The notes beneath the pieces are model-generated. The model had not been told where the DNA came from and did no database searches. It was given only the letters and a program-made list of their open reading frames with translations. This document shows, one piece after another, positions 9,875-40,505 of a stretch of DNA of 43,558 nt. Positions within the stretch are counted from its first letter, which is position 1. Each line of letters begins with the position of its first letter. Source of the stretch: Candidatus Ancillula glyptotermitis (GTDB taxonomy: Bacteria; Actinomycetota; Actinomycetes; Actinomycetales; Bifidobacteriaceae); NCBI GenBank assembly GCA_031268675.1, contig JAIRWY010000088.1, positions 1 through 43,558 of the forward strand. Reading direction: 5' to 3'. The position numbers and the translations under genes are program-made.

Positions 9875-10614
9875 CGCACAATTGGTGATTTCGGAGCAGA
9901 AACATCAAGAGTTGTCTTACCAGCAATTAGTTCACTAGCCATTATCTGCTTTATATCTGCAAGTTTAAGCGTCAACTGGTTGGTATTACCAATAACGATA
10001 TTGAAACCACTGTTTTGAATTATCGTAATATCATCACGCGTATTTGCGGTAATTGCTTTAATATTCAATTGTTCATTCGCAATCGTGTCCAGAATGCGCA
10101 GTACATCATGTTTTGCCTCAGCAGTTGCAACAACTTCTGGATATACGGGCATATTTTGTGCAACATCGCCTAAAACTTCACCTTCTTTATCAACGAGCTT
10201 ATCCCCAATCCTACATATTGGTTTTCTAGGCTCAATAACAACTGCAATTTCATGCGGCCATTGTTTCATAACCGTAACTGATTTTACACCATGCATATGA
10301 GATATTTCATCTTGCATTTTATCTGTGCTAAACAGTATTAGCGAATGCTTTTCAGTTTGAAACCTGTTGCTTATATTATTCAATGCTTCTCTATCTACAA
10401 ATACTGGATATTGCTGATCATCAAGACCGAAGAAGTTTACTTTTTGTATCTGAAAAATTGACGAAAACAGTAGAATATATAATCCACCAGTTAATCCTAA
10501 ACATATAAAAAAATAACGAAGTAGACGTATTACCATCATTCTAACTGCAAAGCGTCGTTTTTCTAGCGCTCTTTGTTCAATTTCCGACAGATTTTTACTA
10601 CTAAACACCAACAA
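9871..10614 (-). CDS. ftsQ: Cell division protein FtsQ
   Basis: The 247-residue protein has a cytoplasmic tail of about 32 residues rich in Arg, one membrane helix (about 33-53), and then IQKVNFFGLDDQQYPVF, the start of a FtsQ POTRA domain. VTVMKQWPHEIAVVIEPRKPICRI is the conserved POTRA end (V.r.wP..l.i.v.Er.P). FtsQ links early and late divisome proteins through the FtsB-FtsL subcomplex. It overlaps the murG-murC stop by 14 nt and ends the cell-wall cluster, as FtsQ does in bifidobacteria, with no ftsA or ftsZ following. Confidence 0.92.
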   Translation of the reverse strand: MLVFSSKNLSEIEQRALEKRRFAVRMMVIRLLRYFFICLGLTGGLYILLFSSIFQIQKVNFFGLDDQQYPVFVDREALNNISNRFQTEKHSLILFSTDKMQDEISHMHGVKSVTVMKQWPHEIAVVIEPRKPICRIGDKLVDKEGEVLGDVAQNMPVYPEVVATAEAKHDVLRILDTIANEQLNIKAITANTRDDITIIQNSGFNIVIGNTNQLTLKLADIKQIMASELIAGKTTLDVSAPKSPIVR

Positions 10615-13006
10615 CCTTTTTAAAAATATCTATAAGTGACGGACCTGCACCAACACTCAAAATAACCGCTCCTTTACTGCTCTTTTTTGCTTCATCAAGT
10701 GCCATTTTTACCCCACTTTCAAGCGTGTTGGTAGTAAATATTTTTGAATTATATTGAGCTATTGTATTAGGAGAAACATCTGGAAAGTCTTCTTGGATTT
10801 CTCTTGCTGGGTAAATTTTAGTTACTATTGGAACATCCATGCGCCCAAGTTGTTGTGCAAATTCTTCAGCAAAATTAAGAGTACGTGAAAATAGATGTGG
10901 TTGGAAAAGAGCAATAATTTGCTTATCTGGATATTTCTCTAATGCAGCATCTAGTAATACTCGTATTTCTGTTGGATGATGTGCATAATCATCAACAACT
11001 TCAATTGACTTACCGTTGAAATTTAATTCATGAACCTGAAATCGGCGCTGTGCCCCTTGAAACTCGGATAATGCAGTTCTAGCTTCATTTTCACGCGCTC
11101 CGACGATTCCAGAAGCCAAAAGAGCAAGTCTAGCATTTACACGATTGTACTCACCTGGAACCTGCAAATTAACTGCACAAGTAGAATCTATAATGTGCAG
11201 ATTTTCTCGCGGAAGTTGCAATATATCTTGAACTTCAGGAGTGACAACAACATCTTTTGAATTTGCTGCATATCTTCTAAAAGTATTACAAATGTTGTCA
11301 AAATTCTTGTAGAAATCTAAATGATCAGCCTCAATACTTGTGATTATTGCAACATCTGAATGATATTTAATAAAACTGCCATCGGATTCATCTGCCTCAG
11401 CAACCACTATATGCATACTTTTATCCAAATATCCCCCATTTGTATTCTCTTTGCAAATTTGAGCTTCTGCACCGATGATGAATGAAGAGTTGGCATTAAA
11501 AAATATACTAGCAAGCATAGAAGTTACTGTAGTTTTCCCATGACTACCAGCAACTGTTATACTAATATCGTGTGCATTTAACAGAAGTTCAAGCGCATCT
11601 GATCTATGGAACACATGAAATTTACCAGAATTTGACTTATACAACTCTATAGCTTTATTCAGCTCCAAGTTCTCACGTTTTATTGCAGATGAATATACAA
11701 GTGCATCAACTTTAGGGCTACCATTGACATCAACTATATGTTTCGGACTATGTCCTCCAGTTGCACTATCACAACCAGTTACTTTTGACAACAACGAGAA
11801 ACAAGTAGCAATTGGAGCAATTCCTGCACCCGAAATTGCCATAAAATGCACATTTTTGCAATCATTAAGCAACTTTTTCGCCAAGATTTGATCAATTTTC
11901 TTCGCAAGCAATTTCGCACCATCTGCATTTGCATTTTTTGCTGCAGCATTACTCATTTGAGCAAGCTTTTCTTGTCCTTTTAGTAACTCAATAACTTCAG
12001 ACTTTATAAAATTTGCGTTGAACTCTGAATCATCAACAATTATCGTACCAGAACCCAAAAGTCTCGCATTCAAATGCTGTTCACCGTTTCCAATTGGTAA
12101 AGGAACTAAAACACTTGCCTTTTGCATAATCGCCAATTCATGAACCGTACCAGCACCACTTCTAGCAATAACTAAATCAGCATCCTGCATTAACTCGCTG
12201 ATATTATCGGAGTACTCAAGAACCTGATATTTCAGCGCTTTTTCTGGATTAGACTTTACGAGTTGTTCTCTGTACTCAAGAGCTTCTTCTGCTTTTTCAT
12301 ATCCAGTTATATGAACTACACTTGCATTATCTAGTAATTCATCAAGAGCTTCAATTACTGCTCTGTTGATTGAAACTGCACCTAGCGAACCCCCGAACAC
12401 TAAGAGTTGTGGTAATTTGTCATTACTTGTATCTTTTTGCGAACTTCTTGATAAAACAGCAACTGGAAGTCCAGTGCATTCAGCAACATCCATTTTAGCA
12501 CGCAAGCTGCGCGGCAACTTTGTGTAGTGAAATGTATATGCGAAGTAGTTGCATATTTTAGCACCAAGAATATTTGCAAGACCAACTTTTGCATTTTGCT
12601 CATGTACAACAACTGGGATTTTTCGCCGCGATGCTGCAATATATGCAGGTGCTGCAATATATCCTCCAAAACCGACAACAACTTGAATATTTTCATCAAC
12701 TAGTATTTTTTCAACATCTTTAACTACTGAAAAAAATCGAAGAGGAAGTGTAAGATTCTTCGCAATCTGCTTTAGGCTCCTTACGACTGGAGTTTTTCTA
12801 ACCTTGAACAATTTGTATCCACTAGTTGGAACAAGTTTTTCCTCTAGTCCATTACTGCCTAGAAAAACTGCGTCTACTCCACGACCTTTTAGTTCATTTG
12901 CAACGCAGATTGCGGGTTTTATATGTCCTGCGGTTCCTCCCGCTGCTAGTAATACTTTGAATTTTGGCACACGCTGAAATCTTGAAGAATTGTCTTGTAC
13001 ATCCAC
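10601..13006 (-). CDS. murG-murC: MurG-MurC fusion protein (lipid II GlcNAc transferase / UDP-MurNAc-L-alanine ligase)
   Basis: A single 801-residue frame carries two peptidoglycan enzymes. Residues 1 to about 380 are MurG: LLAAGGTAGHIKPA, VVGFGGYIAAP, VVHEQNAKVGLAN, LLVFGGSLGA, and RSGAGTVHEL with GNGEQHLNA. From about 384 it is MurC: HFMAISGAGIAPIA, VYSSAIKRENLEL, the ATP loop AGSHGKTTVTS, EADESDGSF, EADHLDFY, DDYAHHPTEI and FQPHLFSRT. There is almost no linker and no stop between them. MurG is membrane-associated and transfers GlcNAc to lipid I; MurC is cytosolic. The start is GTG 13006, exactly 6 nt after a TGTGGTATAAT element, so the mRNA is probably leaderless. Longer frames run through the SRP RNA gene and are not real. 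Confidence 0.93.
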   Translation of the reverse strand: MDVQDNSSRFQRVPKFKVLLAAGGTAGHIKPAICVANELKGRGVDAVFLGSNGLEEKLVPTSGYKLFKVRKTPVVRSLKQIAKNLTLPLRFFSVVKDVEKILVDENIQVVVGFGGYIAAPAYIAASRRKIPVVVHEQNAKVGLANILGAKICNYFAYTFHYTKLPRSLRAKMDVAECTGLPVAVLSRSSQKDTSNDKLPQLLVFGGSLGAVSINRAVIEALDELLDNASVVHITGYEKAEEALEYREQLVKSNPEKALKYQVLEYSDNISELMQDADLVIARSGAGTVHELAIMQKASVLVPLPIGNGEQHLNARLLGSGTIIVDDSEFNANFIKSEVIELLKGQEKLAQMSNAAAKNANADGAKLLAKKIDQILAKKLLNDCKNVHFMAISGAGIAPIATCFSLLSKVTGCDSATGGHSPKHIVDVNGSPKVDALVYSSAIKRENLELNKAIELYKSNSGKFHVFHRSDALELLLNAHDISITVAGSHGKTTVTSMLASIFFNANSSFIIGAEAQICKENTNGGYLDKSMHIVVAEADESDGSFIKYHSDVAIITSIEADHLDFYKNFDNICNTFRRYAANSKDVVVTPEVQDILQLPRENLHIIDSTCAVNLQVPGEYNRVNARLALLASGIVGARENEARTALSEFQGAQRRFQVHELNFNGKSIEVVDDYAHHPTEIRVLLDAALEKYPDKQIIALFQPHLFSRTLNFAEEFAQQLGRMDVPIVTKIYPAREIQEDFPDVSPNTIAQYNSKIFTTNTLESGVKMALDEAKKSSKGAVILSVGAGPSLIDIFKKVVGV

Positions 13007-13012
13007 ACTATA

Positions 13013-13023
13013 ATTATACCACA
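13013..13023 (-). promoter_or_regulatory. Leaderless promoter of murG-murC
   Basis: TGTGGTATAAT ends 6 nt before GTG 13006, so the predicted +1 is the G of the start codon. No strong -35 is visible. It begins right after the SRP RNA terminator. Confidence 0.85.
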
Positions 13024-13051
13024 CAATACACTCAACAAGCAGTATAAAAAT

Positions 13052-13135
13052 GCCTAGCACACCATCATCTCGATCGCTTATCCTTGCTACATTCCTGTCC
13101 TGGGGAGGTTCAGCGTGACACAATCCGTACTAGGC
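13052..13135 (-). ncRNA. ffs: SRP RNA (small bacterial type)
   Basis: The minus strand contains the SRP domain IV core CCAGGACAGGAATGTAGCAAGG. It has the GGAA tetraloop, closed by ACA/TGT, and the AGCA side of the Ffh-binding internal loop. The ends pair as GCCTAG/CTAGGC, giving an 84-nt hairpin RNA, and a run of five T (13050-13046) follows as terminator. The RNA binds Ffh for membrane protein targeting. It lies between the Xer gene and murG-murC. Confidence 0.93.
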
Positions 13136-19440: not shown

Positions 19441-19470
19441 TTGACAAGTGGATGAATGCAGTGGTATAAT
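19441..19470 (+). promoter_or_regulatory. Strong promoter of the surface operon
   Basis: TTGACA (19441-19446), 18 nt, TATAAT (19465-19470) with TGG before it. The predicted +1 is near 19477, giving a leader of about 27 nt before the small leader ORF. Confidence 0.88.
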
Positions 19471-19503
19471 ATAGGAGTTCATATTATATAGGAGATGTAG
19501 GTT

Positions 19504-19572
19504 ATGAAGTTGAAGAATGTATTTTCTGGCAGGTGCGTCTGCTTGTTGAAAATGGAAAAGAGTGTTCGGTAA
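19504..19572 (+). CDS. 22-residue leader peptide of the surface operon
   Basis: ATG 19504 lies 9 nt after GGAG and is the first start downstream of the consensus promoter. The product is short, basic and Cys-containing (MKLKNVFSGRCVCLLKMEKS plus two residues). Its stop TAA overlaps the next ATG (TAATG at 19570-19574). The arrangement suggests translational coupling, so the leader may set translation of the membrane-anchored protein. Expression of the peptide itself is unproven. Confidence 0.5.
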   Translation: MKLKNVFSGRCVCLLKMEKSVR

Positions 19573-20540
19573 TGGCTGATAAAGTTTATAGCTCAAGACC
19601 GAAGGTGAAGTTCTACGAGTCAAGTCGTTTTATGACCATTGCTGTTTTAGCAATTTCTGTATTATTTATCCTTGTTGCTGCAATTGCTGGTAGTATGAAT
19701 AGCATAAGTGGCACGTTTACGGGTGAGACAAAATTGAAGCAAAGTATAGATCTTATTTCATCTGACTCTCCGAAAGAGGCAAAGCAAGATACAACTTCTC
19801 GATTGAATTTATATTCCTATCAACGAGCAGCTGGTAATAAAAATGGTCAGTTTGGTGAAAATATTCGTCACTATATGATGAAATGCGATGCAAAAAGCAT
19901 GGACGCATGGTATTTTCCGAAGAATGGCTACGATTCTGATAAGAATCCAAATAGTGATGAATTTGTGCCAGGAGTTTGGACAGGAGCGCATTGGTGTGCG
20001 AATAACGCAGATGAAGGTGGAAAAAATCATAAACACTGGTCTATTGAAGTTCCAGATCAAAGTGGGCAATTACAAACTAGATTTGAAGTGGTATTTGGTG
20101 AGCGTGATCGTAATGATGATTTAGCGGGATTAGAAATAACAGAAATCAAAACGCATCAGTCAAATTTTACATTTCTTAAAACTACCGATGAAAGGTTTCG
20201 CATATTAGGTTCTGACACGCACCCGCCATCACTGGAATTAGGAACCTCAAAAGGTAATGATTCTGACACAACAAAATGGTCAATTGAGATGCAAAATAAG
20301 GAGAATGGAGGTAACTCGGGCTCTGATTTTGCAGTTGTAAATTACGATGACAATGGAAATAAAATAAGTACTCCACTCTCAATAGATAGAGCCACTTCAA
20401 GAATACGCATTGAAAGTAATCATCCACCTACTAGTTCGCATGACACTTGCAAAAAGGGTGAAATTGCTTGGGATAGTAACCATACATATGTGTGCGTAGA
20501 AGATTCTCACTGGAAGAGAACGGCTTTAGAGGAGTGGTGA
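19572..20540 (+). CDS. Membrane-anchored surface protein with a phage-tail-spike-like module
   Basis: The 322-residue protein has a basic cytoplasmic start (MADKVYSSRPKVKFYESS), one membrane helix (about 20-42), and an outside domain rich in Trp and Asn. Near residues 220-285 the pattern LELGTS...W.IEMQ.KENGGNSGSDFAVVNYDDNGN then PLSIDRATSRI matches a motif I know from phage tail spikes and fibres (ESGSNaGSDF..yrYDDaG...PLsInRatG). The C-terminus is CKKGEIAWDSNHTYVCVEDS then HWKRTALEEW, a small two-Cys module also seen in tail and surface proteins. ATG 19572 is preferred; a GTG at 19533 would add 13 residues. It is the first main gene of an operon with the GLUG protein 1 nt downstream. Function unknown; binding of a surface partner is inference. 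Confidence 0.78.
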   Translation: MADKVYSSRPKVKFYESSRFMTIAVLAISVLFILVAAIAGSMNSISGTFTGETKLKQSIDLISSDSPKEAKQDTTSRLNLYSYQRAAGNKNGQFGENIRHYMMKCDAKSMDAWYFPKNGYDSDKNPNSDEFVPGVWTGAHWCANNADEGGKNHKHWSIEVPDQSGQLQTRFEVVFGERDRNDDLAGLEITEIKTHQSNFTFLKTTDERFRILGSDTHPPSLELGTSKGNDSDTTKWSIEMQNKENGGNSGSDFAVVNYDDNGNKISTPLSIDRATSRIRIESNHPPTSSHDTCKKGEIAWDSNHTYVCVEDSHWKRTALEEW

Positions 20541-20541
20541 T

Positions 20542-23500
20542 ATGAAAAAACTTGTAAATATTTTTGTAGTTGTTTTGATGCTTGTGAGCAGTTTTTGCAA
20601 TATTAAACTAGCTCAAGCAGCAGTGGTTGCCGAAAATGAATGTAAATCAGGTGGTTCACCTTATATCATTTGTACAGCGCAGGAACTAGATGAACTACCA
20701 AGACATGACTTATCAGGCTCATTTATTTTGGGTGCAGATATTGATCTCAAACCTTATCTGACTCCAGGAGGCACAGGATTTAGCAAATATCAACTGGAGA
20801 AATGGCTACCAATTGGAAGTATAGACAATCCATTTACTGGAACTTTTGACGGTAGAGGACATATAATCTCTGGACTTGAAATTAACCGTCTTTCTTCTGA
20901 TGATATTGGGCTTTTTGGTAATACAATAGATGCACATATATCAAATTTAGTGGTAAAAATTGGAGCAAGTGGTGTTCTTGGTGGCAAAAATGTAGGTGCA
21001 ATTATCGGAAATCAAGTCATTGATAATGGGAGTCGCGATTTAATTAACAATGTGCATGCATATGGATATATTGCAGGTTCGGAAAATATCGGTGGACTTT
21101 TTGGGCAGATAACCGTTCAAGGAGGTGCAGTAGCTTCTTCAGATAGTTCACACTTTGATGGTGAAATTCATTCTACTAGCGGATTTGTGGGTGGACTTTT
21201 TGGAAAAGTTAACATCTTGAACGGTGGTAATATTATACTCAAAACGAGTTTTTCAATTGGTGAAATTTTAATATCTAGTGCAAACTCGCAGGGTGTTGCT
21301 GGTCTTATTGGTGGAATTGTCGCAAATGGTGGTGCAGAAGCAGAAGTTCAAGCAAGTTATTCTACTATGAATATTTCTTCGCCAGGTAGTTCAGTTGCTG
21401 GTCTTATTGGTGGATTTCTAGGAAGTGATGGTGCTATTTTAACAGTTGATCAATCGTACGTTAGTGGACAAATCAACGGTGTTTCTTCAGTAGGCTCAAT
21501 TTTTGGTAGTATTTATGCGGCTAGAGGTGCCAATGCATATATTGTTGATACATATTCTAAAGCAGATGTTTTCGGCGAAGATAATTGTGGTGGAATTATT
21601 GGAAGTGTTGAAGTCAGTAGTGGTGGTCATTTCAGGGTCTTTGACATTTACAATATTGGTAGTTTAGTGCGCGTGAATCGGTCCAGTGGTGGTAATTTCG
21701 GACAATTTATTGGGAGTGCGCAGACTGATAACTCAAATTTGACAATTGACTTTTCGCATTCATATTTTAACCCTACTAATATGGTTGCCAACACTTTAAT
21801 TGGATATACGCATGGTAGTGTTACTTTTGATGATGCAGATGCAAGAACTAATGAGCAACTACTTGAAAAGGCAACTTATATTGGATGGGACTTTGATAAA
21901 ACTTGGGGAATGTTCACAAAAGAAGGTGCATCTACAAAAGGTGAGAGCTACGGTCATCCATATTTGAAAGTTATGAAAAACGAGATGCTAATAACACCAA
22001 TTCACACTTGGAAAGAAAGTGATAATACACCTGCTCCATATCCAATTCCTTGGTGTGCTGCAGGGGGAGGAGATCCATATGACGACTTTTCCGTCTATGA
22101 CAACGATGATACAACCTGCGCACAATTTAGAGACTCAAAGTATAAAAAAGATGAGTTTTCACTTACTGGTCAACTGGAATATTCAGCTCTAGATCCAACT
22201 AATCCTGGTGTTTATCACATACTTGCAGGTACTTTAGATCTTCAAAATCCGTACTACCAGGAATTTTTCAAAGGTGGAGATGCAAATCGCCCTGATTATC
22301 GCATTGTTAAATTCTACACCAATCGAGCAACTGTTCCTGTCGGGCAAAAAATCGAACTTCATGGGGAAGGTTTTCAGCCCAGAGAAACTGTGAACCTATT
22401 CAGTAATACCACTACTTTTCCGCTGTCAGAAGCAGCTACCGTTGATGAAAATGGTTCATTTATGAAGGTTCTTGAAGTACCAAGTGATGCAACACTAGGT
22501 GAGGTTACTTTGCAGTCCGTTGATTCGCAGTCCGTTATTCGTACAACCTCTTTTGAGATACTTGAAAAAACAAAAGATCCAGAAATTGCAACGTCAAGCG
22601 CGAAATTAGCGGCAGGAGATGTTATGCATATTAGCGGAACTGGTTTTACTCCGAACTCTGCGGTAAAAGTTCTTGCGCCAAATATTCAAATTCCAGATGT
22701 TGCCTCTTCTTCTAGTGGTGAAGTTAGTGTTGATTTGACAATTCCGTTAAACACTCCACAGGGTAACTTTTCGTTAATGCTGTATGATGAAGTTTCTGGG
22801 ATATATTCAAACCAAGCAGTTACATTTATAGATGTATTTCGTTTTCAAGTATCTGATATAGTTTTACATCCAGGTGCGAATTTTAATGCTGCAGTTGGTA
22901 ACGGTGTAAATAATGGAGAGGTTCATATTTCTTCTACAGCGCACGACTGGGGAAATTTTCCGTTGAATAATTCTGGGCGGTTACTGCAAACTCAGTTGCA
23001 ATTACCACTTTCTGAAAAGTCCACAATTGAATCTATTCAGGCAGAAGATTTAACAACAGGAATTTCAAGGACTAGTAGTATTTCTGTAAGCGTTCCAAAA
23101 ATTGAACAAATTCTACCGCAGAATCCAGTTGCTGGTGGTAATCTTCAGTTGTTTGGATCTGGTTTTCTTCCAAATTCTACTGTTACTGCATATATTGATG
23201 GTGTTCAAGTCGGCAAGTTCAAGACTGACCAAAGTGGCTACACGAATATAAATGCACCAGTAATACGAATTCCGTCAAGTGCTGTAGATTCTGTGGTAGT
23301 AAAACTAGCAGATTTAGGCGGTGGTGTAAATTATGCACAGCGACGAGTTTATTTAAGGACTTCATCGGGCACTTCGGATGCTGGTGGCGGAGGAACTAAT
23401 CCCAGTGGTGGCGGAGGAACTAGTGGTGGTGGCACAATTATAGATGATGATCGCGACCCTAATGCAGATTTACCTTCTACTCCCATTAGCGATGTGCCTG

Positions 23501-24360
23501 CTAACCGCATTCCAGATACTGGTTCTGATGATATTTCCGCTCTTATTGACCCATCTGACGGTTTCACCCTGTCAAATTCTACAGCTCCAAAAGGTGGTGA
23601 AATCAGTGTCAAGGGTGGAAATCTCACTCCTAGCACTTCCTACACATTCACTTCTCCAGTGACTGAAACAGCAAGTTTTATTACTGACAACAGTGGTGTT
23701 TTACAATATGGTGCATACTTGAAGGTGCTGAGTAATGCAGATTCTGGCGATTGGGAGCTAGCGATTACCAGCAATGAGACTGGAGAGACGATAAACTTAC
23801 CATTTAGTATAACAACTCCTACGTTCAAATTTGATGCTGATTGTGTACATCCTGGAAGAGCGTATTATGTCAGTGCTATTGGAGAGGGTCTCCAACCAAA
23901 TGCTCTATTTGATCTATACCAAGGTGGTGCGAAATTGACATCGGGAGTAACTTCAACTATTGGTAGGATAGTTCTACAAACGACCGTTATACCATATGCG
24001 CAAGAAGCTGGAAGTGAATTGTCATACAAGATTGTTGACAGATATACTGGTGCTGAAACTGGAACTGTTAAGTTGAAAATTGCAAACCCTACAATTTCAG
24101 CAGATGAAAATACTGTAAGTCTTGGTGATGATTTCGTTTTCGCTGGTTCTGGTTTTGTGCCTAATCGCCCGATTACTGCTAAAATTGTTACTAATAACGG
24201 GGCAACACTTGTTTCTGGAGAATTTAAGGCAGATGCATCTGGAACTGTTAATTCTACACTAACTATACCTGCGACAGCTCCAAAAGGTGAATATATGCTG
24301 GTTGTAAATGATGATCGGCCAGGCAAAAGTAGGGCGTATCTGAAAATAAGAGTTGTATAG
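20542..24360 (+). CDS. Secreted 1272-aa GLUG-motif / beta-sandwich repeat protein
   Basis: A signal peptide ending AQA (about residues 1-26) is followed by TAQELDELPRHDLSGSFILGADIDL and FTGTFDGRGHIISGLEI, the usual opening of GLUG-repeat beta-helices. GLUG-type rungs (IGLFG, VGAIIG, IGGLFGQ, VAGLIGG, CGGIIG) continue to about residue 410. From about 590 on there are five beta-sandwich repeats with the signature 'G..i...G.GF.PN..V' and '..G.a......iP..ap.G'. A Gly/Ser linker and an Asp/Pro-rich hinge lie near 945-1000. There is no LPXTG motif or C-terminal membrane helix, so it is either released or held by another partner. GGAG precedes ATG 20542. Probable adhesin; related GLUG proteins occur at the surface of gut bacteria. 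Confidence 0.83.
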   Translation: MKKLVNIFVVVLMLVSSFCNIKLAQAAVVAENECKSGGSPYIICTAQELDELPRHDLSGSFILGADIDLKPYLTPGGTGFSKYQLEKWLPIGSIDNPFTGTFDGRGHIISGLEINRLSSDDIGLFGNTIDAHISNLVVKIGASGVLGGKNVGAIIGNQVIDNGSRDLINNVHAYGYIAGSENIGGLFGQITVQGGAVASSDSSHFDGEIHSTSGFVGGLFGKVNILNGGNIILKTSFSIGEILISSANSQGVAGLIGGIVANGGAEAEVQASYSTMNISSPGSSVAGLIGGFLGSDGAILTVDQSYVSGQINGVSSVGSIFGSIYAARGANAYIVDTYSKADVFGEDNCGGIIGSVEVSSGGHFRVFDIYNIGSLVRVNRSSGGNFGQFIGSAQTDNSNLTIDFSHSYFNPTNMVANTLIGYTHGSVTFDDADARTNEQLLEKATYIGWDFDKTWGMFTKEGASTKGESYGHPYLKVMKNEMLITPIHTWKESDNTPAPYPIPWCAAGGGDPYDDFSVYDNDDTTCAQFRDSKYKKDEFSLTGQLEYSALDPTNPGVYHILAGTLDLQNPYYQEFFKGGDANRPDYRIVKFYTNRATVPVGQKIELHGEGFQPRETVNLFSNTTTFPLSEAATVDENGSFMKVLEVPSDATLGEVTLQSVDSQSVIRTTSFEILEKTKDPEIATSSAKLAAGDVMHISGTGFTPNSAVKVLAPNIQIPDVASSSSGEVSVDLTIPLNTPQGNFSLMLYDEVSGIYSNQAVTFIDVFRFQVSDIVLHPGANFNAAVGNGVNNGEVHISSTAHDWGNFPLNNSGRLLQTQLQLPLSEKSTIESIQAEDLTTGISRTSSISVSVPKIEQILPQNPVAGGNLQLFGSGFLPNSTVTAYIDGVQVGKFKTDQSGYTNINAPVIRIPSSAVDSVVVKLADLGGGVNYAQRRVYLRTSSGTSDAGGGGTNPSGGGGTSGGGTIIDDDRDPNADLPSTPISDVPANRIPDTGSDDISALIDPSDGFTLSNSTAPKGGEISVKGGNLTPSTSYTFTSPVTETASFITDNSGVLQYGAYLKVLSNADSGDWELAITSNETGETINLPFSITTPTFKFDADCVHPGRAYYVSAIGEGLQPNALFDLYQGGAKLTSGVTSTIGRIVLQTTVIPYAQEAGSELSYKIVDRYTGAETGTVKLKIANPTISADENTVSLGDDFVFAGSGFVPNRPITAKIVTNNGATLVSGEFKADASGTVNSTLTIPATAPKGEYMLVVNDDRPGKSRAYLKIRVV

Positions 24361-24365
24361 ATCAA

Positions 24366-25328
24366 ATGTCGTTTCTAAATCCTAAAATATTTCACACAGC
24401 AGTATTGTCATTGAGCGCGTTTGCAGTTAGCGTTTTAGTCTTCTATCAATTTTATCCCGCTATAATTAGGTCTGGAAGTGTTGGAATTGATATATATTTA
24501 ATACTAATTGGTTACCAAATTACCAAATTGTTTTTATTTTCAGATGTTAAAAATATTGATAATCTATACAAGGTTATTTTTAATATTGGGCTGTTTTATT
24601 TAGTAGTTATTATTGCGGTGCTTATTTGCACAACAGCAGTCCAAATAATTCTACATCCTGGAACTGATCTATTTGAAAATTTCAAAGTTGTTGCAGTTAT
24701 TGTATACTACTTATTACTTCTGGCAATATCATGCTTTTGGTCTCATGAACTTACTAGACTAAATAATTTTTACAAAACAGTTTGCTTAACCTTACTTGTT
24801 TTAGTTTGTATTTCTGTCTACTTTATTGGTGCAGATCTAGACTTTTTCAAATCTAATGGCTTGAAATTATTTGAGTTGTATTTTGGAACTATCTTAGCAT
24901 ATTTAGCAAAAGCAGTTGATGACAGACAAAGGACATTTTTGAATTATGGTGATCGCTGTATATTAGCCAGTGGCGGAATTATATTTTTAATAACTAGTGT
25001 GCTGACAAAATTTAGTGGAATTCTAAATACAGCTCTGTCAATTTTTGGTACTATATTTATTTTACTCTCCAGAATGAATACAAAACACCAAATTGAGCCA
25101 TTGCTTGATAATGTACTAATGAAATATCTAGGAGAATCAGCGTTTATAATGTACTTGGTGTATTATCCTGTCTATGCTACACTTCAGCATGGTCAAAACC
25201 ACTACTTTTTAGTTCAACATCCGATTTATGTGATTATTTTAATGTTTATGGTATCCGTTACTGTTCGTTTATTGATTCAAGAGCCAGTTTATTTAAAGTA
25301 TAAAGAGGGAATTTATGATACAGTTTAA
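24366..25328 (+). CDS. Acyltransferase-3-like membrane protein lacking the catalytic His
   Basis: The 320-residue protein is mostly hydrophobic, with about nine or ten membrane helices. VLVFYQFYPAII then GSVGIDIYLILIGYQIT lines up with the OafA/Acyltransferase_3 start (vvlfHa...gGfvGVDvFFvlSGfLIT). LMKYLGESAFIMYLVYYPVY lines up with the family's last helices (fLG.iSYslYLwHwPv). The His of helix 1 that transfers the acyl group is Tyr here, and the usual W-S-L-x-x-E-x-x-F-Y segment is degraded to SCFWSHELTRLNNFY. It may be an inactive scaffold or channel for the neighbouring synthase (inference). It overlaps the GT2 gene by 14 nt. Confidence 0.65.
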   Translation: MSFLNPKIFHTAVLSLSAFAVSVLVFYQFYPAIIRSGSVGIDIYLILIGYQITKLFLFSDVKNIDNLYKVIFNIGLFYLVVIIAVLICTTAVQIILHPGTDLFENFKVVAVIVYYLLLLAISCFWSHELTRLNNFYKTVCLTLLVLVCISVYFIGADLDFFKSNGLKLFELYFGTILAYLAKAVDDRQRTFLNYGDRCILASGGIIFLITSVLTKFSGILNTALSIFGTIFILLSRMNTKHQIEPLLDNVLMKYLGESAFIMYLVYYPVYATLQHGQNHYFLVQHPIYVIILMFMVSVTVRLLIQEPVYLKYKEGIYDTV

Positions 25329-26889
25329 TGCAATTGTCCTATTACCTTTTATATGCCTATTCTTCATTATAAATGTAGTGGTTACTGTTCACAGGCGTTT
25401 TATGGAAGGTGAAAAGGGAGTTGTTTTAGAAGGAAAAGACGCATCTAGTAGAAGGCGTAATTTGAACTATATAAGACGAGTATATAAAATGCAAAAACAG
25501 TGTTCTTTTATGGATATTGATGTGCCTGATAATATAGTGCCAGAATTTTTGGATTCCTACAAGTATAAGCCTCTACAAGCAATTTGGTCTATTAATAAAC
25601 GTATGCATTTTGAAATATTTCCTGTTATTTTACTTTCTTGGATACTTTGGAAAGAGTTCGCAAAATACAATTTTATTTTGAAGCCATACCAAATATTCTT
25701 TCTTATTTTTGGTGCATTTTTTATATTTAAGTGGTTTAATTGGATTTTACTAGACACTTATCAAGCCGATGAAACTGCTGATGTTGATATAAGCAAACTA
25801 CCAGTGGCAATCGTTATACCAGTTTATAACGAAGATAAAAAATCACTTGTAGATTGTATTATTGCACTTTTACTTCAAACTCGCAGACCAAATGAAATAC
25901 ATATAACGGATGATGGTTCTGGGTATGAATACCAAGATATAAAGGAGTGGTTTTGTAGAAAATGTGAAGAATTTGGAGTTATTGGAACTTGGGCAAGGCA
26001 AGAAAACTTAGGCAAAAGAGAGGCGCACTGTAATTCAATATCTAGGATTTGCAACAAGAATTCTATAGTTTGCACAATTGATTCAGATGCAACTTTGGAT
26101 CCACGCGCAATTGAAGAGGGCATGAAACCTTTTGCTTGGAGTCAACACAAATCAGTTACTGGTCTAGTTATTTCAAAAAAAGTGAATTCAAATTTTCTTA
26201 CTAGAATTGTTGATAGTATTCCATTGGTTAGCTCGCAACATTTAGGAAAAGGCTCAATGTCTGGATATGGCTGCGTTGTGGTAAATTCAGGAGCAATTTC
26301 GCTTTACCGCCCCGATGTAATTGCTAAAGCATTAGAAGTTGGATATCAAACAGAAACTTACAATGGAGAGCCTGTGCATTTTTCTGATGATTCCTTTTTG
26401 ACGCTAATTGCTCTGTCTCTTGGGAAAACGATTTTTCAACCATCATGCTTTTCATTTGCAGATATGCCAATTACTCTCAACCATCATCTGCGTCAATATA
26501 CTCGTTGGGCGCGCGGTGCAGTAATTCGTGGATTTTGGAGAGTTAAGTTTTTTCCATTCCCAAATTGGGTCTTCATTGTCCAATTTTCAAACTGGGCGTC
26601 ATTTTTTGTTGCCACGATGATTTTTATTATTTGGGGAGTTGAAGGTATTACCCCTGATACAATTTTGTTTTTTCTCATAACGAGTACTGTATTTTGTTTT
26701 CTTTTAGGAATGCAGTATTCATCAGTAAAACGCATAGATGTGTCAAAAAAAGATGCAATTATAAATTTATTACTACTACCACTTTCTATGACCTGGCAAT
26801 ATAGTGTTTTGCGAATTGTTAATATTTACGCGATGTTTACTCATTCTACACTCAAATGGGGTACTAGACAAAGCGTGGAGAAGACTTGA
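25315..26889 (+). CDS. Processive family-2 glycosyltransferase, hyaluronan/cellulose-synthase-like
   Basis: The 524-residue membrane enzyme has an N-terminal helix, a region of about 70 residues, two more helices (about 100-145) and the GT-A domain. Its motifs are VAIVIPVYNEDKK near residue 164, HITDDGSG, the DXD motif DSDAT near 256, SDDSFLT near 357 (catalytic base Asp) and RQYTRWARG near 392, the (Q/R)xxRW motif of processive synthases. Several C-terminal helices follow. It probably polymerises and exports a surface polysaccharide from a UDP-sugar. The sugar cannot be predicted. It is the last gene of the surface operon; GAGGGA precedes ATG 25315. Confidence 0.85.
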   Translation: MIQFNAIVLLPFICLFFIINVVVTVHRRFMEGEKGVVLEGKDASSRRRNLNYIRRVYKMQKQCSFMDIDVPDNIVPEFLDSYKYKPLQAIWSINKRMHFEIFPVILLSWILWKEFAKYNFILKPYQIFFLIFGAFFIFKWFNWILLDTYQADETADVDISKLPVAIVIPVYNEDKKSLVDCIIALLLQTRRPNEIHITDDGSGYEYQDIKEWFCRKCEEFGVIGTWARQENLGKREAHCNSISRICNKNSIVCTIDSDATLDPRAIEEGMKPFAWSQHKSVTGLVISKKVNSNFLTRIVDSIPLVSSQHLGKGSMSGYGCVVVNSGAISLYRPDVIAKALEVGYQTETYNGEPVHFSDDSFLTLIALSLGKTIFQPSCFSFADMPITLNHHLRQYTRWARGAVIRGFWRVKFFPFPNWVFIVQFSNWASFFVATMIFIIWGVEGITPDTILFFLITSTVFCFLLGMQYSSVKRIDVSKKDAIINLLLLPLSMTWQYSVLRIVNIYAMFTHSTLKWGTRQSVEKT

Positions 26890-31090: not shown

Positions 31091-34000
31091 TTACCATACT
31101 ACGTGTGTAACATCCATGGGGATAAGATGACCGAGGAACATACTTAGAAAATAAAACTCTACAGACACTTCTTGAGTCAATTCAGCACCATGACCATTAA
31201 ATGGACTGCCACTAATGAGAGTAAGTTCTATATTGCCATTTGTTATCGATGACACTTTATAAACCCCAGCATTTCCTTTGCCATTAGGTCCATAATAAAC
31301 CTCTTCTCCCTCATATGGTCCCTTTGCAAGAACTTCAAATTTCTCACGTAACTCATCAATATGGAGAGTCACTATATCTCCACTTTCAAGCTGAATTTTA
31401 AATTTCGGTCCAAGCTGTGATAGTATAATACCCTTTTGACCTTGATATTCCCCTATCGTAAATCTTATTTTATAATTAATACCAGCTCCATTAAGACTAT
31501 ACGCTCTTCTAGGTACCAAACCAAACTCACCTCCTCGGGGAAGTCCATTATTTACGAACCTATAAAATACCATTTCTCTCATTGTGATGGTCTCCGCACC
31601 TTCAACATTAAGAGGAATTTCAATCCCCTCAATATATTTAGTGTAGTCACTTTTACTAAGACTACGAATGGTAACATTACCACCCTCAACTTTTGTCACA
31701 ATAAAAGTAACCGCTCCATTACCGAAACCAATATCGCCAGCTTTAACATCATAAGATATTGGAGATCCATCAACAATCATATGTGATAAGTCGTCAAATG
31801 AAATATCCATCCTAGCATTTGGACCAAAATAACGACCAAGGAAATTATAAGCATCTGAACCTTCACCGAAATCGAAATAGTCAGCTAAACGCACCCTAAC
31901 CGTTTGATTCTGAAAATCGACTGCATCTACAGATATATTAAATACTTCATCTCTAAACTTAATCTGAAATTTCGCACCATTTACAAGCTTTAATTTTTTG
32001 CCAGTGGAACCATATGGTAATTCAACTGCTTCCACTCTTGCAGGTGGTTTAGAAGTTGGAATGACCTTATTCTTGGCAAACAAATCTCTCAATCCCTCTT
32101 CAGATATTGAATGTTCAGAATAATTAAAGGCTAAGGAGTAACTAAAATCGTCTGAAAAACTCACCATTATCACGCTGTACTGACCATTACCAAGACTTAC
32201 AAGACGGAATTTTGTAACTCCACTGTATCCAGTTACTCCTATTCCAGACACAGAATCTAAATTAACATTATCGTCTTCTGTAAACACAAGTTGATACCAG
32301 TTATCACCAACTTCTGGTTCGATATGAACTTCTTCACTACTTTTTACAACCATTTTAGCAAAATCAACTTTTTTGAGGGTTACTTCTGCCCTATTTGAAA
32401 AATGCACAACTACATTATCGCCATCAACTTTTTCAACATATGCATAACCAATTGAACCATTTTGCCTAATCTGCACTAATTTTCCAACGTTATGATCTAT
32501 ATATGAAATCTCCTCAGATAGCCTCTGAACAGGAGAACCTACAGGTACAATTTTCGTAGCACGCCCAGAAACTATTTCAATTTGCAACTGAGCAGGAGAT
32601 ATATGTTCCACACTACCATCAGCAGCAGTTAAACGATAAGAAAACGGTAGATCAGCTGCAGTTCCTTTCCACTTAGCTTCCAAAGAGTCTTGCAAATAGC
32701 AAACTGTTAAAGTATACTCTTTACCATCGATCACAATCTTATCACCAGAGACTAGCGAACCTTCAATACTAGCACCACTTCCTTGTAAATTAATCCTTTT
32801 TGCTCGACGAATCAGTTCTCCACTAGATATTTTATTTCTCAACTCAGTAATACTCAATCGTCGCTCATAAATCACATCGCCAATCTTCTCTTTAGCGATA
32901 ACTAAAGTCTCACCATTTGTACCTTCTTCTAGTCCAGTAACTACAAGATCATATTCTGCACCATCGACAACATGTCCAAAAGTTGAACCAGCAAAAATAC
33001 CTTTCAAGATGCGCTTAAAGCTAGAAGAGTTAAATCCAACTTTAGTAATACTAACATCACTACCGTCTTCAAGCCGTAGAACAAAAGTATCATCAGTTTT
33101 GGAAATTACAACAGCCTCAACAAATTTGTCATCTTTTTTGTACAATACATGCGAATCAACTTGGAAATTTTCAAATTGTATGTCTTCTCTGATTGGTAGA
33201 TACGAAAAACGAATACTAGTACTTCCTTCTACTAGTTCACCAGTACTGTTATAGTACAGATGCAGTGACTTACCATCAGGACCCTTTATTATAAAATGCG
33301 GTTTACCTACTTCTTCGACAGGAATGCTATCTCCTACAACCTGATAAACACCTTCATAAGGATCGATTAGGCGAGGACTAATATCTGATCTTTTATAAAT
33401 GCCGCGCGCTTCCGCCAAAACAGTATCATCTTTTTCCCACTTATCTGCACTAGCATCGTATCTATAGCCCACAAGTTCACCTTTAGACTTAACTACTGTA
33501 ATAGTAGTAGAACTACCACCACTTCTAAGTTCAACAATTTCGCCTGGTCTAAGATCAGCATGCAAACTACCTTTAACGTACTTCGTGCTAAGTTCGCTAA
33601 CCTTCATTGTATGAAGTTCTTCTTCTCCAAAATAGCTAAAAGTAAATTCAGCATCATGCTCAACTGTACCAATAGTTGAGCTCCTGATAATGACGCATCG
33701 CTCGCCTCCTCCATCAACTCGAATTTTAGCTGCTATACCCAACTCAGACTCATCTAAAACTCGTATATCAGCTGCTATAATATCGTCAAGCAACTCTTTA
33801 CCTATTTCTGTTTTTTGAAATAGATACCAGAACTTACCTATTACAGTAGATGTCCTTATATCTTTCATAAAGCGCTTGAAGGAAGAAGAATTAAAGCCGT
33901 CTTTGTTAATACTAACATCACTACCGTCTTCAAGCCGCAAAACAAAAGTATCATCAGTCTTGGAAATTACAACAGCCTCAACAAATTTGCCATCTTTTTT

Positions 34001-37000
34001 GTATAGAACAGAAGAACCTAGTTTGAAGTCATTAAATTGTATATCTTGTTTAATTGGTAAATAAAAATAAAATGGAGCAATAGCAGACCTTCCTTCTACT
34101 AATTCACCAGCATCGTTATAGTACAAATACACTGACTTACCATCAGGACCCTTTATTATAAAATGTGGTTTGTCAAGTTCATCAGCAGGAACATTATCTC
34201 CCACAATCTGAAAAACATCTTCATCTGGATTGATCAGGTGAGGACTAATATCTGATCTTTTATAAATGCCACGCGCTTCCGCCAAAACAGTATCATCTTT
34301 TTCCCACTTATCTGCATTAGCATTGTATCTATAGCCCACAACTTTATCATCAGACACAACTACTGTAATAATAGTAGAACTATCATCAGTGTTAAGCTCA
34401 ACAATTTCGCCTACTCTAAGATTGGCATGCAAACTACCTTTAACGTACTTCGTACTAAACTCACTTGCTTTCATCGTCTTTACTTCGCCATTTAGTTCGG
34501 TGAAAGTAACCATCGAATCACCTGTTGTACGCCAAGCAAAAGAATTTATAGTAACTTTTCTTTTAACTCCGTTTTCTAAAATCTCAGCTGGCCAATGATT
34601 ATTTCCAGGATACAAGAAATCTAAATTTTGAGCCATAAGATCACCTAGTAAATCTCCAGCAATATTTACTCTTCCAAGATTATATATAAGTGTTATTTTA
34701 GAATCTTTAAGTAAATCTCGAACTTCAGAAAATGTTAGAGTTTTACGAACAAACACTCCTTTAGCGGTATCATAACTCCGTAATTCATATGAATATTTAT
34801 CTGTTTTTACAAGATATGCATAACTACCAGCAGCTTCAAATCCAGGAATCCCATCTCTTTGAACCATATAAAATCCACCATCTACAATTGCAGAGGTTGC
34901 TGAATGTGCTTTAATTATATCTTTAAGCTGTTCTTTTTTCAGCCGAACGTAATATACACCATCTGCTCTATATGCTTGTGGTATTGCGTCAGGATCCTCA
35001 AACTCAACATCAAAATATTCCCCATCAGCAGAAAGACTTCTGCACTGTACCACAAGTCTTCCCATCTTATCCCCACTCTCATACTCATAAACATACCCAA
35101 CCTCAATATTTTTGCCATCTCCTGCCAAGACATGAGGATACCTATGAATTGGACGGTACTTTTGCTTAAATTCAGCATATGTCATGCTTTTCAATTCATT
35201 AGTATCTTTATCAATAAGGTATACAATACGACTTGTTCCTGTTCCTGTATCTGCATCTTCCACTTTCCAAATTTGCACCCTCTTTGCCTTGCAACTAGGT
35301 GCTCCATACACACCTCTTGGCATCGTTTGAACAGGCGCACAAACAGCATCTCCTTCTTCCCATTCAGTTCCGATTAAATGTTCGCTTCTATCAAAAAGAT
35401 CTACTGCACTCATTCTGTGGATAGTAAGAAGTTCACTTACTGACATATCCGTCGTTAGTCCCTCACCTGCTGCACCACCTACATGATATTTTACGGTAGC
35501 AATATCACCATCAATTGAAATAACTTCAACTCTAGTGCAACGGTTCCCATCTGCAACTGGGATATCAAATGAAACCTTCTGATGATTAGCAATCCGCTCT
35601 CTCATTGTCTGCAAAACTGCCGCATCCTGCTCCGCACTCTGCTTAAGCGCAGCTTTTACAGGTGCAAGTTTTATTGCTTTTGCAACAGATCCCGCAAAAT
35701 CTACTGCAGAAAGCGCAATGAACACACCGTCCATAATGTAGCCAATAAGTTGATCAACACTTACATGCGCTTGTTTTGCAAAATTAAGTATTTTAGCATC
35801 AGTTATATCCTTGCTGTTGTATGATGCAAGCATTGCCTTTTTATCGGTTGCAATGCCGTAGCTTAAATAACCTGCGCGCGTTTGAAAACCTTCTTTATAC
35901 ACAAAGTTCTCTTTTGTCTTCCTCTTGCTTGCATCAGGATTTGCTTGCTCCTTATCTGATTTTAGCCCAAGCCAAACTCTTGAACCATTAGGAATCAGCT
36001 GCTTTGTATTGTAGTTGTGTTCTTTTCCATTCTGGGATACGTCATCAATTGCAAGAGCACTTGAACCTCTTTCTTGTTCACCAGCATTATAATCTATATG
36101 CTTAACCTGAGGATTATAGTTTACAACAAGTGGATCAGTCTTTAACCGTTCTTGGTAGTACAAAGTATACTGATCTTTATACATACCATATTGCGCCCAG
36201 TCAAAACCGCCAATTGTCCATGCTTTTGCAGTGTTGTCGTAGTTTGGATCCATTATTTTATGACCGCCTAGATCCTTAATTTCTTGACCTTGATAATCAT
36301 GTTTATAAATAAAGCGCTTTGACATGTCAACAGGTGCAATATCAGGAGTTGCTTGTTCATATATATCCATAACCAGTCCGCCAACGGTCGTTGCTAAATA
36401 AATCGCCGCAAAAGCCATATCTGTTGCAACTGCTGCACCAGGAGCGAGTATATGCAGTGCAATTTGTGGAACAATCAAAGCAATCGAACCGTATGAAAGT
36501 GCAGTGTGAATCATGTCCATAGCAACTTGCTTTTGCATCCTAGCAATTGATTCTCCCATGTCCTTTTTCTCGCCATAAGCAAATACATGAATATTATTAC
36601 TGTTGTTGACAGTCATAAGGTCTCCAAAAGTTGCATATCCTGCTTCAAGAACTGAAGACTCATCAAAATAAAATACCTCTGTCCATAAATTAGAATCTGT
36701 TTTCTTACCCTTTGCTCCTTTAACATCAGAACCAAGACGAACCACGCTATGATTTGGAACTCCGCATTCTTTCAAATTCTTCTCAACTGCTGAGTGTTGA
36801 GGAATTGAATTTCCGCAATTTGTAAATTTCCATTCATGAGCATCTTGAGTTAAATATGCAACTTGTGGAGCAACATTAGCAACAGTTCCATTCACATATG
36901 CTAAATTGCCAATTGTTGCAATTGCTGTTCTAGAATCAGCCTTTGGAATAATACGTACGCGAATAGCTTTAATATCATAATTAGGATCTATAATGCCAGC

Positions 37001-40000
37001 AACATTTCCATCTTTAATCCAAGCAGTCCAATTTTCCTTACCACTTTGCCAAACTGAAGTTTCAACAGTAAATAGGTCATCAAAACTACCGCCAAAGCGC
37101 ACTCCAACTTGTTTAAGCTTTGCATCTTTGTTCATATAATAACGTGTACTATCAAGATTTGCATAATCAATATTTCCAACATCATTGGTTTTTGTATAAG
37201 TATCGTCAGTTGAGTATTTTGATTTTTTATCATCAGCATTACATCCTCCAGAAAAATTAGAGGCTTTTTCCTTAGAAGAAACAGTTGCATCGCTAGAAAT
37301 TCTCCAAAGATCTGAATTTTGATCTATTTGCAATGGAATATCTTTGTTGAATACATCAACCATTTCCTTGCATCCTGCATAATGCCCATCTGAAAAGCTA
37401 ATTCCATATCCAGGATAAGCTGATTTTACTCCGCCGCCATCAGTGCTCGTGAGTCCGCTATTTTCATAAGTTGCATCAACTATAACAGAATTATCATTCG
37501 TCTTGCCATTTTTATCCTCATCAATTAAATTTGCTCGTAGATTGTTAATAGTTGGAGCATCGCTACTAGGATTTCCAACTTGCAAATATTGAGTTCCAGA
37601 TTCATCAGTTAAGGTCTTCTGGCTCGTTTCATCCCAAGTATTAGAGGAAGCAAGATGTGGAGCTAACTTTATCATGTTTGAACGCGTAAAGTAGTTCATT
37701 TTAATACCAGTTAACTTATCAACACCAATAAAACCGTCACTATCTGCTGAAGATACCCATTGATTTTGAGAATTTCTTATACTCGTATTTATACCAATTG
37801 CCTCATTTATTGTGCCCTCAAAACGAACACTTGTATGATTGATATCACCTTGAACATTTTCAACTTTACCGTCAAAATCTGGACCTTGATGATATTGATT
37901 ACTTGCATCAAACTTGTATAGGCAATTTCCACCAGCGCCAATGTCATACTCGTTAATTGCCTTCAAGTCCAAAATCTTTGACTCTTTATCTTTACAACTA
38001 GTAGAAAATTTAACTTTCACCTTAGATGCATTCGCTGGAGCAACAATATTTCTAGTACCTCCAACAAGAACATTATCAGTAGTTTTACTATCAACTTGTT
38101 TTGAATTGTCATCATAGAACGTATAGGTAAACTTACCCCAAGCGCCAGCTCCACCATCAACATGAAGTGCAAGTTTCGCACCATCAATTCCCTTAATTGC
38201 TGCCCACTTGTGGTTTTTTACATAATCTTGGTCATAATTACAATCTGTCGCTGTACACTTGTGTTGCAAAGCAGCAGGATTAGTATTCGGGTTGTTGGCT
38301 TTCTCATCAAAACCATAACGCATGTCTTTACTTTCATCATGAACAAGTTTTGCATTTGGACCCATTACATCTTTTGTACCTTCAAGATATTGGTAATAAA
38401 GTGGCTCCAGATCAAGATGCTTGATGCCGTAGTCTTCCGTAGCACCTGCAAGCTTAAATTCAACATGCTCTTTCACAGTGTTCGTGTCAAAAACAGTTGT
38501 AAAAGTCCTGCCAACCGTGTTGTCGTAGTTATCCCAAAACCCATTATCACTGTCTCCTGTATAATATACAGTTCGAAGATTACCAGAACTGTCAATAACA
38601 TCTGCCCAAATCTTATATTGCGCTGCATAACCTACACCAACTGGAAGGTGAATATCCAAAATTGGGCGGAATTTCACTGCATTCTTGTTAATCGAAGCTG
38701 TTGGTTGTCCAGGCTTTGAAATAAATGTGCGGTCTTTATATTTACTAGTATCTGTTTTCATATACGCCAAAACAGAAGACTTGCTATTATATGCAGAGTT
38801 TATATGCTGCTCAAATTTCAGGTCTTTTGCACTCTTGCCCTCTGGAAGTTCAACTACTTTTGGATCTGGAAGTGCCTCACGCGCCTGTTGTGAAGAAGAG
38901 TCCAATGTGCCCTTGTAATCAGTTCCGTCTTGATCAGTTAGAATTGGAGTTATATCTGTTCTTGCAAATTTAGGATCATCGTCCGTTCCAATACATCTTT
39001 TGAAACCTTCTGCATCTGTTACGCTACCTGCTTGCGCGGCGCAGTCTCCGCTTATATTCAGGTGGATGGGCTTTCCAGAGCTATCTCGCATCTGTGCAAA
39101 AGCGCCGTTTAGAGGATCAAGTCCTGTTGTTTGCAGATCTTTGGCCTCCCGCAAAGCTTCTGCATCAACACCACCTTCTGCAAGAGTCTGAAAATCTTCA
39201 TCTTTTAAGTTAGTAGAATCAAACGAAGGTTGTATCATTGCAATGCGCAGTTCTAATGCTTTGTTCTTATTTTCTACTGTTTGTTTATCTTCTTGAATAA
39301 TTTTTATGAAGTTGTGAATTTTTACCTCAGTTTCATACATTTGAGCTGCAATATTGACAGCATTTGAAATTGCAAACTGATCATCTCTTGGTTCAATGTA
39401 TTTATCATCAAGATCTCCAATTGTACCACCTGAGTAACTATAGAATTTATCTGCAGAAAATGAAGCGAAAGCAGTTTCAGCCCACTTTTGAACGCACTTA
39501 TCTTTTTCTAAATCTTCATGTTTTGTATCAGAATTTGGAATTGGAATATTATTTTGTAGATGGCAAGTCTGGAACCAGTCGTGTTCAGTTTGAAAAGGAA
39601 CTTTATATGTATCAAAATACTGATCATAGTAGTCAACATAATAGTTAAGCTGTGAAATATCAGAATCTACTGTCATTTTGGCAACATCAATTTCAAGTTT
39701 AAGTGACTCTTGAAGTTTCTCTCTATCCTCTTTTTGGTTTTCAGCGTTTTTTTGATGCCATGTAATATAGTCATCAAAGTAGTGTAAGTTAATATCTTTA
39801 TCTTCTCTACCACCATTTTTAACTGCAAGCAAGTTAATTCCAGTGTCTGAATATTGCGAATCTACAAAAAGAGCTAATTGCATGTTTAATTGATCGGCAT
39901 TTGTTCCATGTGTAGTATCTTCAGTATTTTGCAACATCTTGGTAACTTTATCGTAGTAGTTTTGCATAGTTTCACAGTTCTTGTAGCTATCAAAATCTTT

Positions 40001-40276: not shown

Positions 40277-40340
40277 ACGAACCTCACCAAACCTACACTT
40301 AAAAATTGTCATCAACTAGTTTGAACTACTAAACGCAAAA

Positions 40341-40476: not shown

Positions 40477-40505
40477 ATTATAACATACTTCTTTAAGTTT
40501 GTCAA
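40477..40505 (-). promoter_or_regulatory. Consensus promoter of the giant gene
   Basis: Minus strand: TTGACA (40505-40500), 17 nt, TATAAT (40482-40477) with an upstream TG. The predicted start near 40470 gives a leader of about 195 nt, unusually long for this window. Confidence 0.9.

Follow-up and report, generated by a model that had tools for sequence, protein, structure and literature searches.

An accessory operon-like locus of Candidatus Ancillula glyptotermitis encoding a hyaluronan-synthase-like glycosyltransferase, a degenerate AT3-family protein and two predicted surface proteins

Introduction

Among the class I processive membrane glycosyltransferases of family 2 (GT2), the hyaluronan synthases (HAS) are defined by the motifs GDDR and WGTSGRK (PMC11750622). 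Another arrangement is icaADBC, which pairs a class I GT2 with a membrane protein of the acyltransferase-3 (AT3) family in one operon (PMC9558356). Loss of the AT3 protein, IcaC, abolishes poly-N-acetylglucosamine (PNAG) (PMC4117637), and the biochemical role of IcaC-like AT3 proteins, as transferases or in export, is unsettled (PMC9558356). In the AT3 family the motif RX10H is absolutely conserved, and RXXR and SGF are conserved and functionally important (PMC9833829; PMC9558356). Here, we describe a locus of Candidatus Ancillula glyptotermitis (positions 19,441–26,889 of contig JAIRWY010000088.1, whose whole analysed stretch of 43,558 nucleotides is called the window) in which a HAS-like GT2 and an AT3-family protein are encoded directly after a fibre-like and a GLUG-type protein. 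Each part is of a known protein kind; the combination was seen nowhere else in anything searched.

The genus Ca. Ancillula includes intracellular symbionts of termite-gut flagellates, and the lineage, which shows genome erosion and pseudogenes, is described as having neither sortase-dependent nor tight-adherence pili (PMC11707648). When the lineage probe was applied to the Glyptotermes sample no signal was obtained, and this species was thus not localized (PMC11707648). Its genome is reported as 1.80 Mbp with a GC content of 37.92% (PMC11707648); the assembly used here has 1,802,720 bp, is 82% complete and contains one sortase, and the GC content of the window is 37.6%. The family to which the genome belongs comprises 16 genera, a make-up that together with its position in Actinomycetota fits Bifidobacteriaceae, and its own genus consists of four small genomes.

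Results and Discussion

The locus begins with a consensus sigma-70-type promoter (positions 19441–19470, plus strand), in which TTGACA and TATAAT are separated by 18 nt and a TG precedes the −10 element. All 12 of the 12 consensus positions match; 0.05 such promoters would be expected in a window of this composition, against three observed. The other two, both on the minus strand, precede a tRNA-Gly (7926) and the gene of a 3074-aa secreted protein (40505). Downstream, a leader frame of 22 codons (19504–19572, plus; MKLKNVFSGRCVCLLKMEKSVR) is joined by an overlapping stop and start (TAATG) to ORF1 (19572–20540, 322 aa). On the strength of this coupling, the start of ORF1 is probably the ATG at 19572 and not the GTG at 19533. 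On the same strand follow ORF2 (20542–24360, 1272 aa) after 1 nt, ORF3 (24366–25328, 320 aa) after 5 nt, and ORF4, the GT2 gene (25315–26889, 524 aa), with an overlap of 14 nt. No terminator-like site was found at the joints between these genes, whose GC content at third codon positions (GC3) is similar to that of the window (0.23–0.29 throughout). The promoter, the five co-directional frames and their spacing had been reported in an earlier note made from the letters of the sequence, and all were confirmed, the spacing exactly; the promoter and the tight spacing make the layout operon-like, and the genes are probably co-transcribed. LemA starts 62 nt after the GT2 gene, outside the stretch marked in the earlier note, and was not counted in the operon, because it comes with a separate extended −10-like sequence. 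Attenuation through a structured leader was considered and is unsupported, since no Rfam family was found in the operon region and the fold of the leader RNA is ordinary (z −0.85).

Searches of Pfam, NCBIfam and the PDB agreed that ORF4 is a class I processive membrane GT2, as the earlier note had proposed in placing it with the enzymes of the hyaluronan/cellulose type. When a profile of 32 of its relatives was run against the PDB, the Chlorella virus HAS (CvHAS, 4e-46) and Xenopus HAS1 (XlHAS1, 1e-39) led, against 4e-8 for chitin synthase and 3e-6 for cellulose synthase. The AlphaFold2 (AF2) model of the protein has a predicted local distance difference test score (pLDDT) of 80.8, and its 13 best Foldseek matches are all HAS (E 1.4e-17 to 1.4e-13, TM score about 0.6). 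Like these class I enzymes, the GT2 has the HAS-type fold and topology, with transmembrane (TM) helices at both the N- and the C-terminus, and carries the DxD and QxxRW motifs, the catalytic lysine and the WGT gating motif. Every family-invariant residue is retained, including DDG 199–201, DSD 256–258, SDD 357–359, QYTRW 394–398 and WGTR 515–518. It departs from the HAS, however, in having SDDS in place of GDDR and the gating loop WGTRQSV in place of WGTSGRK/R, and in starting with an extra fused N-terminal helix, which is common to the relatives from Actinomyces and Saccharibacteria (UBA1949). The change in the two motifs is shared with most actinobacterial relatives, and only 11 of the 85 aligned rows have GDDR. 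Motifs and model together thus describe a protein predicted to work like a HAS-type synthase-translocase, which we do not file as a hyaluronan synthase.

A capsule synthase operon of the hyaluronan type, making a polymer of N-acetylglucosamine (GlcNAc) and glucuronic acid (GlcA), would fit the fact that, among solved structures, HAS comes closest in both profile and fold, and a sugar-dehydrogenase homologue does lie nearby in 19 of the 84 loci that hold relatives of the GT2; most of these 19 belong to the SDDS and GDDR groups. Set against it are the changes in the two HAS-defining motifs (PMC11750622), the sugar-supply genes of the genome itself, and the tree of GT2 relatives, where the window protein sits on a long branch with weak support (81/81); because this branch is not firmly placed, no donor or acceptor was assigned from it.

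As to sugar supply, only one NDP-sugar dehydrogenase in the genome scored above cut-off, and it carries GGHCIPVDP, which we take to mark the UDP-N-acetylhexosamine (UDP-HexNAc) dehydrogenase class, and not GGSCFPKD. Its gene (locus L150, 10050–13605, on contig C2) adjoins an AT3-SGNH acyltransferase and the cell-wall genes murF and mraY; in the three congeners, no dehydrogenase reached the cut-off. Since no UDP-glucose dehydrogenase was found in the genome, the polymer is probably not hyaluronan, and we give the hyaluronan-type operon a very slim chance. In the same way, no polysaccharide deacetylase (IcaB/PgaB) above cut-off was found, and for that reason PNAG of the ica type is probably not the product either. 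At 82% completeness, both absences are only suggestive. The most economical candidate would be a homopolymer of HexNAc or glucose type.

ORF3 encodes a polytopic membrane protein that falls just short of the Pfam family Acyl_transf_3 (PF01757; E 6.5e-7, 29.1 bits against a cut-off of 31) and matches an O-antigen acetylase among the PHROG families (E 1.8e-6). It is collinear with the AT3 domain found elsewhere in the genome (24% identity), and in this alignment the RX10H motif is lost, with Ser17 for the arginine and Gln28 for the histidine, RXXR is missing, and IGY stands in place of SGF. Because all three acyl-transfer motifs are gone, acyltransferase activity is improbable, and ORF3 is very probably not an acyltransferase. 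The earlier description of it as degenerate is therefore confirmed by the alignment, and modification of the polymer through acylation by ORF3 is unlikely. By analogy with IcaC, our best guess is a structural or export role. No solved structure is related to ORF3 by sequence, and the 189 genomes of the family gave weak partial matches only. As a naturally acyl-dead AT3 protein adjoining a processive synthase, it bears on the choice between a transferase and an export function for proteins of the IcaC type (PMC9558356).

The same residues could be read as decay, in which erosion of the endosymbiont genome has cost the acyltransferase its motifs and left the operon functionless. The lineage does show erosion and pseudogenes (PMC11707648), and DinB (polymerase IV), intact in the window, is broken up into several frames in G003, the congener closest to it (locus L165, 4664–5747). 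However, all four frames, from ORF1 to the GT2, are intact over 7 kb, the invariant residues of the synthase are all kept and the promoter is perfect, so that we regard loss of function as highly improbable.

Also to be weighed is an ica/pga-type PNAG locus with the GT2 as IcaA and ORF3 as IcaC. In icaADBC, too, one operon holds both a class I GT2 and a membrane protein of the AT3 family (PMC9558356), the PgaC_IcaA model does give 56 bits on the GT2, and a polysaccharide deacetylase, present near 10 Actinomyces loci, stands directly upstream in Actinomyces relatives. Those 56 bits are, however, far under the equivalog cut-off of 422, the operon has neither an IcaB nor an IcaD homologue, the genome yielded no deacetylase, and ORF3 is without the acyl-transfer motifs; the ica locus, for its part, has no fibre or GLUG proteins. 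Taken together, these points make a PNAG locus quite unlikely.

The two genes upstream encode predicted surface proteins. ORF1 has, by hydropathy, a single N-terminal TM helix (about residues 20–38) followed by an extracellular beta-rich part, and its C-terminus (about 212–322) matches a tail spike (PHROG 29706, E 2.8e-6). This stretch also matches a virion protein of cyanophage S-TIM54 (E 3e-6) and aligns with the Bdellovibrio MAT fibre Bd3182 (PDB 8ojn, E 2.7e-5; PMC10769870). A fibre-tip sequence module is thus present at residues 212–322, in common with MAT fibres and the tips of phage tail spikes; unlike these, ORF1 is short and anchored by its N-terminal helix. Neither S74 nor the N-terminal domain of the MAT fibres gave a match, and no homologue was found in the 189 family genomes. 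The earlier reading of ORF1 as an anchored, tail-spike-like protein is borne out by the helix and the three matches.

ORF2 combines a signal peptide with a GLUG-like beta-helix (about 60–440), about six Ig-like domains and a C-terminal match to Pfam MG2 (E 8.6e-11), and hydropathy gives no C-terminal anchor. The Ig-like part reaches the NCBIfam GxPGS Ig-like model at E 5.7e-9, which is below the cut-off of that model. ORF2 had been put forward as an exported GLUG protein. Export stands, and the GLUG type is supported indirectly by six GLUG-like repeats spaced about 33 aa apart and by a paralogue, while Pfam Glug itself stays sub-threshold. The paralogue, on contig C52 of the same genome (locus L151, 4044–6335), matches ORF2 residues 62–313 (E 5.6e-15) and is a clear Glug protein (Pfam Glug, E 5.5e-35) with SLH domains for S-layer anchoring; ORF2 shares the repeat with such GLUG surface proteins and differs from them in its Ig-like domains and lack of an anchor. 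Another GLUG-type protein of the genome lies on contig C83, within an open frame of 8553 aa. GLUG-type proteins occur further in the genus: GLUG adhesins are a habit of the lineage, whereas pairing one with a synthase is not.

The solitary HAS-like synthases of Actinomyces, Streptomyces, Pseudonocardia and Saccharibacteria (UBA1949) belong to the subfamily of the window GT2 (26–39% identity, mostly SDDS/NDDS), but next to them lie a UDP-glucose dehydrogenase, a deacetylase or a micro-protein of the LAxTG kind. Around the 84 loci, homologues of ORF1, ORF2, ORF3 and LemA were all absent. The GT2 is absent from the three congeners. In G003, the block LemA-M48-WecA is kept at 75–90% identity, but nothing of the operon is left in the 1.8 kb that precede LemA, and UDG is set in another neighbourhood, adjoining a hisA-like gene. 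A clean empty insertion site between UDG and LemA is not demonstrable, since the two genes are on separate contigs of G003 and have other genes beside them. An origin as phage cargo is likewise unsupported, as scans of viral contigs with the GT2 and ORF2 gave no relatives. Because the operon is missing in the relatives examined and the flanking block is kept without it, we regard it as an accessory surface operon specific to the lineage and not as a conserved system. The locus had earlier been singled out as a candidate undescribed system, with a comparison of neighbourhoods as the check; that comparison, over the 84 GT2 loci, the 189 family genomes and the three congeners, never found the genes together elsewhere. 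A looser parallel was noticed in Bifidobacteriaceae bacterium Md513_bin16 (locus L115, 349–4239), where the genes directly upstream of a HAS-like GT2 encode a small TM protein and a pair of secreted proteins with Ig-like repeats.

How the four products might work together can be set out as follows. The GT2 would polymerize a beta-linked sugar, probably of the HexNAc type, from a cytosolic UDP-sugar and push the polymer through its own membrane channel. ORF3 would be its non-catalytic membrane partner, in the place that IcaC has in the ica locus, by analogy with which the partnership is proposed. The anchored fibre-like ORF1 and the anchorless GLUG/Ig adhesin ORF2 would be produced simultaneously and lie within the polymer or on its surface, binding it or serving as a scaffold, ORF2 perhaps being retained by the polymer or by ORF1. 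The polymer and the co-expressed adhesins would form one coat, the reading we favour, with chances of being right and of being wrong that we judge to be equal; the link between proteins and polymer within it is our inference. Of the earlier idea that the operon builds and displays a polysaccharide bound, modified or guided by exported proteins, all the protein assignments and the operon-like layout survive, and conservation as a system is not supported.

Several observations weigh against a common coat. The AF2 single-sequence model of ORF1 (pLDDT 40) was unusable, also for judging whether the protein forms a trimeric beta-prism like tail spikes and MAT fibres, and was discarded, ORF2 has no demonstrated carbohydrate-binding module, and no donor-sugar gene lies within the operon. 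Furthermore, no AT3-type gene stands beside any of the 84 GT2-relative loci, and the gene set was met only this once in everything searched, which leaves a joint function without support from conservation, although uniqueness does not disprove a joint function of the four genes.

The same facts agree with a different account, in which the adhesin pair ORF1-ORF2 and the synthase pair ORF3-GT2 are independent modules that share only a promoter, having been joined by a recent rearrangement. Only this genome has the gene set, the flanking genes are differently arranged in G003 (UDG by the hisA-like gene, and LemA-M48-WecA without the operon upstream), and the relatives of the GT2 are mostly alone or accompanied by a micro-protein, a sugar dehydrogenase or a deacetylase. 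Gaps of 1, 5 and −14 nt nevertheless join the four genes, their joints are free of terminator-like sites, and the genes resemble one another and the window in GC3. We hold two separate modules to be possible but less likely than the common coat.

A stronger form of the shared coat would be a dedicated machine in which the polymer itself, and not a sortase or an S-layer domain, holds the anchorless GLUG adhesin beside a MAT-like fibre, on the surface of an actinobacterium associated with protists, served by a HAS-fold synthase with a non-catalytic AT3-fold partner. Such a display of adhesins would be previously undescribed, and we think it unlikely here. If the joint function is true, an endosymbiont lineage described as eroded and without sortase-dependent or tight-adherence pili (PMC11707648) invests in a highly promoted coat of glycan and adhesins, which would be a concrete candidate for contact with a flagellate host or with neighbouring symbionts; a role in such contact may be supposed for the operon.

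Upstream of the HAS-like synthase genes of other bacteria, we noticed micro-proteins of ~50–80 aa that comprise little more than an LAxTG sortase signal, made up of LAxTG, a single TM helix and a basic tail. In 40 of the 84 loci one lies upstream of the GT2 domain at a distance of no more than 700 nt, whereas the remaining 2.48 Mb of searched strand contain none; examples are L084 (7557–7815), L055 (7576–7776) and L054 (7636–7803), with about 40 further loci among L054–L135. Their hosts are Streptomyces, Nocardiopsis, Nonomuraea, Actinomadura and Pseudonocardia, and they score under the cut-off of the NCBIfam model LAXTG_small_WW. In L054 and L061, a class E sortase lies near these genes. The window GT2 and its Actinomyces and UBA1949 relatives, unlike these synthases, begin with the fused extra helix instead.

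Elsewhere in the window, the 3074-aa secreted protein (31091–40315, minus strand), whose promoter at 40505 is one of the three 12/12 matches, has no Pfam match and repeats part of its sequence internally, at about residues 1954 and 2243. At 10601–13123, also on the minus strand, a MurG-type Glyco_transf_28 domain is followed by a Mur ligase in one frame, apparently a MurG-Mur ligase fusion.

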